From: Clostridiales bacterium | Lineage (GTDB): Bacteria; Bacillota; Clostridia; Christensenellales; QALW01 | DNA length: 64,000 nt | Assembly: GCA_015069575.1 (NCBI GenBank) | Contig: SVIH01000008.1 | Span: 1-64,000, forward strand | Direction of reading: 5' to 3' | Shown here: in pieces, positions 13,235-29,656 of the stretch | How positions within the stretch are numbered: position 1 is the first letter of the stretch | Layout: every line of letters starts with the position of its first letter | Notes under the pieces: generated by a model | What the model was told of the DNA's origin: nothing | What the model saw: the letters and a program-made list of their open reading frames with translations, nothing else | Databases searched by the model: none | Translations under genes and position numbers: made by a program

Positions 13235-14401
13235 ATGAGAAAAAAAAGAACATCGTTTGTATCCATACTATTAATAATTATAATAAGTTTTTGCGGTGGA
13301 TATTTTTTTAACAACTATATTAATAGTGGTTCATTAACATTTGAACAAACAAGGGCTTTAAATCAGGCGGCAAAAATAATTAACGATGCAGCTATCAATG
13401 AGCAGGATGGCGATTACACTGTTGATTTTGCATTAAAAGGAATGGCGGCTTCTTTAAATGACCCTTATGCATATTATTTTACTGCTGATGAGTTAAAAGA
13501 GTATAATAACTCGGTTTCAGGTGTTGTTGAAGGCGGAATAGGTGTTCAGATTGTAATGGAAGGTAATGAATGCCGAATAGTCGATGTTTATTCAGGATTA
13601 ACTGCAAAAAGCGCGGGAATTAAAGTTAATGATGTTATAATTAAAGTTGATAATGAGGCTGTAGCCGACCTCTCTTTAGAAGAAATAAGTTCTAAAGTTA
13701 AGGGCGAAGAAGGAACAAGTGTTAAAATCACTGTTTTAAGGGATAATAAAGAACTAACTTTTAATGTTCAACGCAGTAACGGTCAACGGCAAATGACCGA
13801 ATACAGTATGATTGAAAATACAAAAATACTGTATGTGAAAATTATTTCATTCCGTGGCAATGCTGCTGAATATTTTAAAAAAGCAATTGAATTTGGTGAA
13901 GAAAATCAATACGAAAGTATATTGGTTGATATAAGGGATAATGGTGGAGGCGAACTTTCAGTGTTTGCTTCTATTGCCGATGTTTTGTTGCCCGAAGCTG
14001 AAATATTTTATGCGATGGATAGGCACGGTAATAAAAATAACGTAATTACCTCTGATGCTGAATATATAAATAAACCGATATGTGTGCTTGTTAATGCATC
14101 AAGTGCAAGCGCATCAGAAGCCTTTGCAGGCTCTTTAAGAGATGTTGTTAATGCAAAAATAGTTGGCACAAAAACATTTGGCAAAGGAATTATGCAAACA
14201 AGTTATAGTTTAACCAACGGTGGCGTATTTAAGTTAACAACAGGTAAATATTATCTGCCAAGCGGTCAATGCATTCATGAAAAAGGCATTGAACCTGATT
14301 ATAATGTAGAACTTTCTGAAGAATTAAGCCAAAAATATTGGCTAAGAAATATGGAAAATGATTTACAATTTAAAAAGGCTGTTAAATTATTGACAAATTA
14401 A
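13235..14401 (+). CDS. Carboxy-terminal processing protease (S41 family)
   Basis: The 388-residue protein has an N-terminal membrane anchor (about 7-27), a PDZ domain (about 98-180, GGIGVQIVMEGN) and an S41 peptidase domain with the Ser-Lys dyad: the nucleophile in NASSASASEAFAG and the base in GTKTFGKGIMQ. These proteases cleave C-termini or processed substrates in the extracytoplasmic space; in spore formers, relatives include CtpB, which activates SigK signalling. Whether this copy is CtpB cannot be decided. Its stop codon overlaps the -35 region of a perfect promoter (14390-14418) for the next transcript. Confidence 0.92.
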   Translation: MRKKRTSFVSILLIIIISFCGGYFFNNYINSGSLTFEQTRALNQAAKIINDAAINEQDGDYTVDFALKGMAASLNDPYAYYFTADELKEYNNSVSGVVEGGIGVQIVMEGNECRIVDVYSGLTAKSAGIKVNDVIIKVDNEAVADLSLEEISSKVKGEEGTSVKITVLRDNKELTFNVQRSNGQRQMTEYSMIENTKILYVKIISFRGNAAEYFKKAIEFGEENQYESILVDIRDNGGGELSVFASIADVLLPEAEIFYAMDRHGNKNNVITSDAEYINKPICVLVNASSASASEAFAGSLRDVVNAKIVGTKTFGKGIMQTSYSLTNGGVFKLTTGKYYLPSGQCIHEKGIEPDYNVELSEELSQKYWLRNMENDLQFKKAVKLLTN

Positions 14402-14418
14402 TTATTATGTTTTATAAT
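14390..14418 (+). promoter_or_regulatory. Perfect consensus SigA promoter of the TM1266/ABC operon leader
   Basis: TTGACA (14390-14395), a 17-base spacer and TATAAT (14413-14418) match the consensus exactly. The predicted transcript start at about 14425 lies 150 bases before the first gene, leaving a long untranslated leader. Confidence 0.9.
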
Positions 14419-14424
14419 AAAGGT

Positions 14425-14576
14425 GTTCAAAGTGAAGGATGCGTTCTGACATGGAGACGGTTTATATATCACTGAAAGCAAGGTTATTACTAAGCCCAGG
14501 TAAAGCAGAAATTTAATAGTATTTTTTAATTCTCTTTACTTGTGTTTTGTAAAGAGAATTTTTTTATGGAGGTAAA
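14425..14576 (+). promoter_or_regulatory. Candidate riboswitch leader with antiterminator/terminator switch (class not recognised)
   Basis: The leader runs from the predicted transcript start to the start codon. A closing stem can form between UUCUG (14444-14448) and CAGAA (14506-14510), enclosing a hairpin GGUUA/UAAGCC (14482-14495). The segment GUAAAGCAGAA (14500-14510) mimics the 3' arm of the terminator, GUAAAGAGAA (14549-14558), and can pair with the terminator 5' arm UUCUCUUUAC (14530-14539) through 10 pairs and one bulged C. Closing the upstream stem would release that arm and allow termination. I see no TPP, FMN, SAM, cobalamin, purine, lysine, glycine, GEMM or T-box core. Ligand unknown. 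Confidence 0.65.
14528..14565 (+). terminator. Intrinsic terminator inside the leader, just before the ribosome-binding site
   Basis: A 12-base stem AATTCTCTTTAC / GTAAAGAGAATT with a 9-base loop is followed by T5. GGAGG starts three bases later, so the hairpin gates the downstream operon and does not simply end the upstream one. Confidence 0.88.
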
Positions 14577-14840
14577 ATGGAAAACAGAATAGGCGTTGTT
14601 GGAATCGTAATAGATGATCCTAAAAAATCTGCTGAATCAGTTAATGAACTTTTAAGTGATTTTTCAGATATAATTATAGGCAGAATGGGTATTCCTTACG
14701 AAAAAAGAAGTATATGTATAATTTCTGTTATGGTTGATGGCACTAACGATCGTATCGGTGCGTTGTGCGGCAAACTTGGCAGATTAGAAGGCGTTAATGC
14801 CAAAAGTGTATTATCAACAAAAATATATAAAGGAGAATAA
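14577..14840 (+). CDS. TM1266-type iron-only hydrogenase system regulator family protein
   Basis: The 87-residue protein begins MENRIGVVGIVIDD and has the ferredoxin-like/ACT-like fold pattern of the TM1266 family, whose name comes from proximity to [FeFe]-hydrogenase maturation genes; the sequence IIIGRMGIPYEKRSICIISV fits it well. Its molecular role is not established. Here no hydrogenase gene is nearby; it starts a four-gene operon with an ABC transporter, two bases upstream of the binding-protein gene. The strong GGAGG site follows directly on the leader terminator, so it is the first gene controlled by that switch. Confidence 0.78.
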   Translation: MENRIGVVGIVIDDPKKSAESVNELLSDFSDIIIGRMGIPYEKRSICIISVMVDGTNDRIGALCGKLGRLEGVNAKSVLSTKIYKGE

Positions 14841-14842
14841 TT

Positions 14843-15823
14843 ATGAAAAAGATTTTTAGTTTGTTTTTAATTTTGTCACTTGTAATAACAGTTTTTGCAG
14901 GCTGCGATAACCAAGAAAACACACAAGCAGATGATGAATATAACGCAGTTGATATTAAAGTTGCAGCGCTAATGGGTCCAACAGGAATGGGAATGTCCAA
15001 ACTTATGGCAGATAGTGACGCAAAAAAAACTGCTAATAACTATACATTTGAACTCTTTAAAGCGCCAACTGATTTAACAGGTTTGATTATTAACGGTGAA
15101 TTCCAGATTGCTGCAGTGCCAACAAATCTTGCAGCAACACTTTATAATAAAACAAAAGGTCAGGTAAAGCTTCTTGCGCTTAACACGTTAGGCGTGCTTT
15201 ATATTCTTGAAAAAGGCGAAACAATTAATTCAATAAATGACCTTGAAGGTAAAAAAATATATTCTTCAGGTCAGGCGGCAACTCCACAATATGCACTTGA
15301 TTATGTTTTAAAGGCTAATAATATTAATTGTCAGGTTGAATACTTTTCAACCCATGAAGAACTTGCAACTCAGGCTTTAGCAGGTAATGCGGATATAATA
15401 CTTATTCCTGAACCGCAAGTTTCAACAATTCTTTCAAAAAATGCCGGTTTCAGAATAGCCGTTGATTTTAATAAAGCATGGAATGATGCAACAAACAATA
15501 GTTCGTTATTTTCTATGGGCTGCCTTGTTGTAAGAAAAGATTTTGCGGATTCAAATCCCAAAGCGGTTGAGAAATTTTTAGAAGAATATACAGCATCGGT
15601 AAAATTTGTTAACGAAAATCATGATGAAGCATCACAAATTATTGCAAATTATAAGATAGTTCCTAATCAGTTAATAGCAAAAAATGCTATTCCAAACTGT
15701 AAAATGGTCACAATTTCAGGTGAAGAAATGAAAACAAAAACCAAACCATATCTTCAGATTTTATTTGATAGCGATAAAAAATCAATAGGCGGTGCATTAC
15801 CGGGTGAAGACTTCTATTATTAA
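14843..15823 (+). CDS. ABC transporter substrate-binding lipoprotein (NitT/TauT, NMT1-like)
   Basis: The 326-residue protein has a lipoprotein signal (VFAGC, acylated Cys21) and a periplasmic-binding fold of the NMT1/SsuA type, including MGPTGMGMSKLM near the N-terminus of the mature part and the typical LTGLIINGEFQIAAVPTNLAA region. This family binds aliphatic sulfonates, nitrate, thiamine pyrimidine precursors or related small molecules; the substrate here cannot be read from sequence. It is membrane-anchored outside the cell and should feed the permease and ATPase encoded next. The permease gene begins within its last codons. Confidence 0.88.
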   Translation: MKKIFSLFLILSLVITVFAGCDNQENTQADDEYNAVDIKVAALMGPTGMGMSKLMADSDAKKTANNYTFELFKAPTDLTGLIINGEFQIAAVPTNLAATLYNKTKGQVKLLALNTLGVLYILEKGETINSINDLEGKKIYSSGQAATPQYALDYVLKANNINCQVEYFSTHEELATQALAGNADIILIPEPQVSTILSKNAGFRIAVDFNKAWNDATNNSSLFSMGCLVVRKDFADSNPKAVEKFLEEYTASVKFVNENHDEASQIIANYKIVPNQLIAKNAIPNCKMVTISGEEMKTKTKPYLQILFDSDKKSIGGALPGEDFYY

Positions 15824-16571
15824 AAAAATATTAACCCCAATAATAATAACTGCCATATGGTTAATCATATGGCAGGGTGTTTATTTGATTGTTAATAATT
15901 CATTGTTTGTTTGTGCACCGTTAGATGTTCTAAAAAGAATATTTATTCTTTCACAAACAAAAGTATTTTGGTTTGATGTGTGTTCAAGCGTTGTAAGAAT
16001 AGTTATAGGTTTCATTCTTGGTGTATTTGCAGGGCTTTTTATGGCATTTATAAGCAGTATAAATTTTGCTGAAAAACTTTTTTCGCCATTAAAATTGATT
16101 ATTCGTGCAACACCTATTGCTTCTTTTATTATGCTTGCTTGGATTTGGCTTGATAGGGAAAATATTCCTGTATTTGTTTCATTTTTAATGGTCGTTCCTG
16201 TTATCTGGGGAAATGTTTCAACAGGAATTAAAAACATTGGTAAAAACTATAAAGAACTTGCAAAAGTATATAATATAAAAAAATCACGTCAAATAAAATA
16301 TATATACTTTCCGGGTGTTTTGCCATATTTTACATCAGCACTTTGCACATGTGCGGGGCTTGTTTGGAAAGCAGGTGTTGCAGCAGAAGTTCTTTGTCAG
16401 CCTAAAAACTCCATTGGAACGAATTTATTTTATGCCAAAAGCATTTTGGAAACATTAGATGTTTTTGCATGGACAACAGTTATCATTATTATAAGCCTTT
16501 TGCTTGAATGGATAATAAAATATGTGCTTAAAAAACTTGAGAAAAAGTTTTTATTTGCGGGGTTAACATGA
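15804..16571 (+). CDS. ABC transporter permease (NitT/TauT-like)
   Basis: I chose GTG 15804, which follows AGGCGG; GTG 15792 in the same frame is the alternative and overlaps the lipoprotein gene further. The 255-residue protein has about six membrane segments and the EAA-like cytoplasmic loop (about 170-190: ELAKVYNIKKSRQIKYIYFP) that contacts the ATPase. It belongs to the binding-protein-dependent permease family of nitrate/sulfonate/taurine importers. The gene overlaps its binding-protein gene and its ATPase gene, so the three form one importer. Confidence 0.88.
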   Translation: MKTSIIKKILTPIIITAIWLIIWQGVYLIVNNSLFVCAPLDVLKRIFILSQTKVFWFDVCSSVVRIVIGFILGVFAGLFMAFISSINFAEKLFSPLKLIIRATPIASFIMLAWIWLDRENIPVFVSFLMVVPVIWGNVSTGIKNIGKNYKELAKVYNIKKSRQIKYIYFPGVLPYFTSALCTCAGLVWKAGVAAEVLCQPKNSIGTNLFYAKSILETLDVFAWTTVIIIISLLLEWIIKYVLKKLEKKFLFAGLT

Positions 16572-17113
16572 TAAAAATAAAAAATTTAACCGTAAAATTT
16601 GAGAAAACAATTCTTGAAAATATAAATATCGAATTCAATAGTGGCGTGTATTGTATATATGCACCATCTGGCAGGGGCAAAACAACGCTTTTAAACGCTA
16701 TAGCAGGATTGATTAAGTATAAAGGGGAAATATCTGTTAACGGTAAAATCAGTTATATTTTTCAGGAAGATAGATTGTTGAATTGGCTTAGTGCAAAACA
16801 AAATATTATGCTTGTTGAGCCTGATGAAAAAACTGCCTTAGAGTATATGAATTATTTGGGAATCACCGAATTTCAGGATAAAAAAGCACAAGAACTTTCG
16901 GGCGGAATGAAAAGAAGATGCGCGCTTGTCCGCGGATTATCAGTTGATACAGACATATATCTTCTTGATGAACCCTTCAGAGCGTTAGATAAGGTTAATG
17001 CCCAAAAAGTAAGGGATATTATAAATGAAATGGCAACAACAAAATTATTTATTATAGTTACTCATAATGAGGAAGATTTTGAACTATTAAATGCAAAAAA
17101 AATATTACTTTAA
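16568..17113 (+). CDS. ABC transporter ATPase (short)
   Basis: The 181-residue protein has Walker A (APSGRGKTT, about 33-41), Q-loop (IFQEDRLLNW), signature LSGGMKRR, Walker B (IYLLDEPF) and the H-loop (IVTHNEED). It is shorter than typical NitT/TauT ATPases (about 240-260) and ends soon after the H-loop, lacking the usual C-terminal extension, yet all nucleotide-binding motifs are intact, so it is probably functional. It overlaps the permease gene by four bases. The last 9 bases overlap the convergent small gene. Confidence 0.88.
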   Translation: MIKIKNLTVKFEKTILENINIEFNSGVYCIYAPSGRGKTTLLNAIAGLIKYKGEISVNGKISYIFQEDRLLNWLSAKQNIMLVEPDEKTALEYMNYLGITEFQDKKAQELSGGMKRRCALVRGLSVDTDIYLLDEPFRALDKVNAQKVRDIINEMATTKLFIIVTHNEEDFELLNAKKILL

Positions 17114-29320: not shown

Positions 29321-29648
29321 TTGAGTAAGCCGGATGACTGCGGTGTAAATACGAGGAAAGTCCGAGCTTCATAGAGCAGGATGCCGGATAACGTCCGGTG
29401 AAGGCGACTTCAAGGAAAGTGCAACAGAAATATACCGCCACGCAAGTGGTAAGGGTGGAAAGGCGAGGTAAGAGCTCACCGAATGCTATGGCAACTTAGC
29501 ATTCCTGTAAACCCCATTCGAAGCAAGATTGATAGTGGAGCATTAACGGCTGCTCGTCGGCTCCCATGTAATCGCTTAAGCTTTTCGGCAACGGAAAGAA
29601 TAGATAGATAGTCATCTTTAACAGAACTCGGCTTATAGGCTTGCTCAA
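29321..29648 (+). ncRNA. rnpB: RNase P RNA (class A)
   Basis: The sequence carries the RNase P core: GAGGAAAGTCCGAGCT near the 5' end, GCAACAGAAATATACCGCC, GGTAAGGGTGGAAAGGCGAG, and the 3' ACAGAACTCGGCTTATAGGC. The terminal P1 helix pairs TTGAGTAAGCC (29321-29331) with GGCTTGCTCAA (29638-29648). The GGTGGAAAGGCGAGGTAAGAG region looks like class A. It is the catalytic RNA that matures tRNA 5' ends. A terminator follows. Confidence 0.96.
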
Positions 29649-29656
29649 TATTTTAT

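Follow-up and report, generated by a model that had tools for sequence, protein, structure and literature searches.

A candidate attenuator RNA class associated with H-cluster maturation genes, and its copy before a clostridial TM1266/ABC transporter operon

What kind of RNA stands before the TM1266 and ABC transporter genes of this Clostridiales genome, and what might operate it? Within the window, that is, the whole stretch of 64,000 nucleotides that was analysed, the locus is laid out as follows:

14390-14418, forward strand: promoter TTGACA-17-TATAAT (-35 TTGACA at 14390-14395, -10 TATAAT at 14413-14418, 17-nt spacer), read in the sequence, with identical spacing in the G001 and G002 leaders
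14427-14457, forward strand: hairpin 1, UC AAA GUG AA GGA ugcgu UCU GA CAU GGA GA
14471-14501, forward strand: hairpin 2, ACU GA AAGC AA GGU uauu ACU AA GCCC AG GUA
14498-14510, forward strand: antiterminator 5' strand, AGGUAAAGCAGAA, overlapping the 3' strand of hairpin 2
14530-14541, forward strand: antiterminator 3' strand, also the terminator 5' arm (duplex energy, ensemble folding)
14528-14565, forward strand: intrinsic terminator with a 12-bp stem (arms 14528-14539/14549-14560) and a T-run at 14559-14565 (sequence, duplex energy, ensemble folding)
14568-14572, forward strand: Shine-Dalgarno GGAGG
14577-14840, forward strand: TM1266-family protein of 87 aa (PF21699, TIGR03959), NikR-C/ACT-like fold, the proposed effector
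14843-15823, forward strand: substrate-binding protein (SBP), NMT1/SsuA-like
15825-16571, forward strand: ABC permease (BPD_transp_1)
16568-17113, forward strand: ABC ATPase

The promoter, the leader of ~100 nt and the terminator behind it all lie where a preliminary description of this stretch had placed them, and the strong terminator does end just ahead of GGAGG, at a distance of two bases from the T-run rather than the three first given. The same order of promoter, leader and terminator recurs in three related genomes (G001, G002 and G003). Over 172 nt of non-coding DNA the window leader shares 74% identity (E 2e-18) with its counterpart in G001, a genome of the same genus and the only match in a direct DNA search, which returned none beyond the genus. 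Farther along, the window encodes a bacterial class A RNase P RNA (29322-29651, forward strand).

Sequences that precede TM1266 genes in different settings revealed a recurrent hairpin; before it was recognised, MAFFT alignments of leaders across families were unreliable. The element is a roughly dyad-symmetric hairpin of ~31 nt, in which three short helices are split by GA/RA tandem mismatches. Its order is P1 (CCU/AGG), GA/RA mismatches, a variable helix of 3-4 bp, RA/GA mismatches, P3 (GGA/UCU) and a loop, and the choice between antiterminator and terminator comes after it. Examples are L124 (CCU GA CAC AA AGG uuua CCU GA GUG AA AGG), L082 from Sedimentibacter (ACU GA GCUU AA GGA uug UCU GA GAGC AA GGA) and the G002 copy (ACU GC GAGC AA GGU uaag ACU GC GCUU AA GGG). 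In a descriptor scan over 1.68 Mb the top-scoring matches lay upstream of TM1266, and a score of at least 22 was reached by 41 of 80 TM1266 upstream regions, by none of the 535 controls and by a single one of 80 shuffled sequences; about half of the TM1266 upstream regions have no element by these tests.

The preliminary description had suggested looking for homologous leaders with covarying stems, and indeed the leader is kept in relatives and the hairpin covaries. In an alignment of 12 sites from families other than the window's own, 98.3% of cells were paired (72.8 ± 2.7% when shuffled), the covariation score was 0.835 (0.277 ± 0.044 when shuffled) and 6 of the 10 hairpin pairs showed double changes. 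With genome matches included (36 sites), the middle helix was paired in 91.7% of cells and displayed all Watson-Crick types, vs. 52.0 ± 3.6% when strands were re-dealt (maximum 65% in 5000 shuffles), figures to be read with the caveat that sites, the 4-bp ones included, were partly chosen by scores that reward pairing. In the 3-bp group (A3), P1 and P3 covary and the middle helix is often not Watson-Crick. The sequence data thus strongly support the existence of the element, the covariation within it, its association with particular genes and the competing folds described below, and the leader RNA is a new, widespread and so far unlisted class, of a functional kind that is already known.

Several leaders stand apart from the main consensus. 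One subgroup (L152, L175, L181, L184 and L179) has a nearly invariant core, AUUUGGGUAMGYYCCGGAUGGRAAGG. The f4 leaders (L035, L039, L052 and L146) and those of the Ruminococcus flavefaciens group contain terminators and did not fit the hairpin consensus; the latter group (L125, L126, L129, L136, L139, L141, L144, L149 and L150) carries another strongly conserved leader, TTTTCGGGCAGCAGGGTG..ACTCTGTTATCGGATGGC, upstream of TM1266.

Three features define the class, and G001 and G002 both have them: (C)CUGA / RAGG strands that are conserved, tandem GA/RA mismatches and a middle helix of 3-4 bp that covaries. The window copy (hairpin 2) is the weakest member of the class, with 6 of 10 consensus pairs and most consensus letters kept, and a scanner score of 11.1 vs. 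24.8 in G001 and 26.9 in G002. R1, a covariance model with a 3-bp middle helix, did not detect the window. R2, a covariance model whose training set left out the window's family (f1), matched it at 14471-14501 with 14.9 bits, a match that is only the fifth-best in its own genome and not significant genome-wide by itself (E 6.1). The R2 matches at C6:17551 and C18:41355 of that genome were discarded as chance. Hairpin 2 aligns with the strong G001 and G002 matches at the same place, and R2 matches all four f1 leaders at the homologous position. We therefore assign the window copy to the class putatively, and mainly through its position, its homology to G001 and G002 and these four R2 matches. 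Hairpin 1, whose inner half fits the consensus and which is kept in G001 with CAU changed to CAC, is probably a degenerate first copy; tandem copies are also present at L200, L218 and L094.

Which genes follow the element elsewhere? Among 398 genomes of the phylum, R2 accepted 28 sites (E ≤ 0.01), and in 25 of these the first gene downstream was TM1266 (12), hydG (8) or hydE (5), which indicates that the main regulon is H-cluster maturation; a HydF gene follows TM1266 in L214. Of the three other sites, one is at a contig end and two (L202 and L216) lie inside unrelated coding genes and were discarded as chance matches. The preliminary description was thus right that the leader precedes a TM1266/NMT1-type operon, a gene of the regulon being directly downstream (TM1266 start at 14577), although the element is not confined to NMT1-type transporter operons. 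At L179 (genome G325), a related element directly precedes an SBP gene with no TM1266 beside it, an independent link between this transporter family and the regulon. For many other SBP orthologues the preceding gene is of the Crp/Fnr family and not TM1266. The element occurs in many Clostridia, with single examples in Spirochaetes, Syntrophus, Desulfofervidaceae and other groups. A cis-regulatory RNA common to hydE, hydG, hydF and TM1266 operons is now defined. At L209 and L213 no terminator is present and the hairpin runs directly up to the ribosome-binding site or start of hydG, which suggests translational control there.

Turning to how the window leader may switch, the segment GUAAAGCAGAA (14500-14510) pairs with the terminator 5' arm as first described, in a helix longer than then claimed that reaches AGGUAAAG(C)AGAA (14498-14510) paired with UUCUCUUUACUU (14530-14541). 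This duplex is predicted at -14.5 kcal/mol, vs. -6.1 on average for shuffles (z -3.7); the antiterminator so formed shares bases with the 3' strand of the hairpin and is incompatible with the terminator. Across 52 leaders, the duplex of hairpin 3' flank and terminator 5' arm had a mean z of -1.9, with z < -1.5 in 34. Partition-function folding of the unbound ensemble gives the antiterminator a probability of 1.0 as long as the terminator 3' arm is still missing and of 0.88 once the leader is complete, with the terminator at about 0.12; only 0.4 kcal/mol separates the two folds. These values point to read-through as the default and to a balanced switch; the whole-leader minimum free energy was no better than that of shuffles (z -0.23) and is uninformative. 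The mutually exclusive terminator and antiterminator proposed for this leader are therefore borne out as near-isoenergetic folds, and the attenuator is conserved in relatives.

The proposal that closing an upstream stem should favour termination also holds, for a different stem. The UUCUG:CAGAA pairing put forward for that role (14444-14448 with 14506-14510) is present as complementarity in the window and absent from G001 and G002 in the alignment, and was dropped; the stem is instead the hairpin at 14471-14501. Since its 3' flank is part of the antiterminator duplex, a stabilised hairpin should favour termination, and we infer from the folding models an OFF direction of control in the cell. 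By default, the nascent RNA would pair 14498-14510 with 14530-14541 and the operon would be read through. An effector would stabilise the GA/RA-mismatch hairpin at 14471-14501, and perhaps also that at 14427-14457; the antiterminator strand would then be kept back, the terminator at 14528-14565 would form and the operon would be off. The effector would most likely be TM1266 protein, as a homo-oligomer on the roughly dyad-symmetric hairpin that reports cofactor status. With moderate confidence, we thus read the leader as an attenuator that acts in cis on transcription, belongs to a widespread class for H-cluster genes (TM1266, hydE, hydG and hydF) and works as an effector-bound OFF switch; its control of TM1266 and the NMT1-type ABC transporter in the window lineage is part of the same explanation and carries the same moderate confidence.

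As to the effector itself, we lean, with similar reserve, towards TM1266 protein, which like the signal sensed and the compound transported we infer. The protein is annotated as a "putative iron-only hydrogenase system regulator", and the hairpin family gives it a concrete, testable job. AlphaFold, poor with a single sequence and good with 32, predicts a NikR-C/ACT-like fold (pLDDT 95) that matches 2nzc and then NikR-C. R36 and K76 are invariant and R4 and K66 nearly so, such that the conserved charged residues are all basic, and the overall charge is not strongly basic. TM1266 is not known to bind RNA. It shares its fold with the C-terminal domain of NikR, a tetrameric regulator; unlike NikR, TM1266 is without a DNA-binding domain and has no His or Cys among its invariant or near-invariant residues. 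PyrR, HutP and similar proteins bind attenuators of operons whose first gene encodes the protein itself. The present leaders share with these a leader hairpin and a terminator/antiterminator before the gene of a putative RNA-binding oligomer, as well as several sites of the same regulon within a genome, and differ in RNA motif, NikR-C/ACT-like fold and H-cluster regulon, the binding of RNA by TM1266 being putative.

Co-occurrence, counted by hand for HydG, TM1266 and the element, is also consistent with such a role. TM1266 is encoded in 30 of 31 element-bearing genomes, not directly beside the element in G302, G336, G325 and G546, and G465 (94% complete, with a partial HydG) carries an element with no TM1266 match. 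No element match was found in about 30 HydG-positive genomes without TM1266, vs. about 23 of the about 172 genomes that have HydG and TM1266.

The best-surviving alternative, which we regard as possible and distinctly less probable, is that the hairpin, often in tandem, is a small-molecule riboswitch aptamer for a compound of H-cluster biosynthesis and that TM1266 is merely regulated by it. Unpaired purines conserved within a constant setting, the tandem copies, a metabolic regulon and the elements that precede hydE, hydG and SBP genes with no TM1266 alongside would all suit an aptamer. The element is, however, only ~31 nt long, with no junction or pseudoknot seen, its rough dyad symmetry better fits a protein dimer, such as a TM1266 homodimer, and the co-occurrence counts above speak against this reading. 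Overall, the dyad-symmetric hairpin, the adjoining TM1266 gene and the co-occurrence with TM1266 lead us to favour a protein-bound attenuator.

It is improbable that the window leader is instead a decayed, unregulated member of the class, constitutive and partially terminating. Its element match is the weakest of its family, as such decay would predict, but the promoter, hairpin region, antiterminator and terminator are all kept, the antiterminator pairing stands well outside its shuffles, and the 74% identity to G001 extends over 172 nt of non-coding DNA.

Still less credible is a divergent form of a known leader (xanthine/NMT1 motif, T-box, PyrR or ribosomal-protein leader) or a leader-peptide attenuator. 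Rfam 15 gave no match to the window leader at the gathering threshold and only chance-level, sub-threshold scores in a permissive search (E up to 10); no leader match, and no family near its gathering score, was obtained on 34 related loci, nor any match on the better-conserved relative L175. That no recognised class applies, as the preliminary description held, is thus confirmed, and is probably explained by membership in an unlisted recurrent family of ~31-nt hairpins; a literature search on TM1266, its regulator annotation and hydG riboswitches returned nothing on this RNA. The xanthine riboswitch (NMT1 motif) resembles the window leader in being a short RNA and an off switch that can precede NMT1-type transporter genes, but it is found in Proteobacteria only, folds as a two-stem junction, acts mostly by translational control and almost never has a terminator (PMC7373994), whereas the host here belongs to Clostridia and a terminator is present. 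A 25-codon open reading frame from ATG 14439 might have encoded a leader peptide and was rejected, its start being lost in G001 (GATGCG to GACGCG).

Least plausible of all is a DNA operator, bound as an inverted repeat by a dimeric transcription factor with the terminator incidental: the sequence is an inverted repeat, and the f21 leaders L059, L064, L067 and L071, which precede TM1266, carry a CRP/FNR-type palindrome (TGTGA-N6-TCACA), albeit over the -10, outside the element and ahead of the attenuator, but the element lies downstream of the promoter, is orientation-specific and overlaps the antiterminator, and its GA/RA positions consistently break the palindrome as expected of RNA mismatches.

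What might the transporter bring in? The window genome (G000; 1,588,697 bases read, almost whole, 95.6% complete) encodes, outside the window, a complete trimeric [FeFe]-hydrogenase operon (C11 41041-49215), in which the hydrogenase gene (C11 41041-42798) has all three H-cluster motifs intact. HydE, HydF and HydG were not found in this genome by tblastn, positive controls included, nor was HydG by HMM. In a set of 22 genomes, chosen because they have the TM1266/transporter operon or related features, PF02906 was present in all 22, and HydG above cut-off was absent from 17, this genome included. Apo-hydrogenase has been matured in living cells by externally supplied [2Fe] complexes (PMC6984386), and such maturation, together with a hydrogenase lacking HydE, HydF and HydG, suggests that the transporter might import the cofactor or a precursor. 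We thus speculate that the switched ABC transporter supplies what the missing HydE, HydF and HydG make. In its fullest and rather doubtful form, TM1266 would be an RNA-binding sensor of H-cluster status, acting via the hairpin, and in bacteria without HydE, HydF and HydG would control the uptake of an H-cluster precursor or ready [2Fe] unit from other cells. Transporters of this family occur together with HydG too (hand comparison), and also near CO-dehydrogenase genes, where their role is unknown (PMC11338639). With a regulator tied to an ABC transporter, the cofactor source of HydG-less [FeFe]-hydrogenases becomes a direct experimental question.
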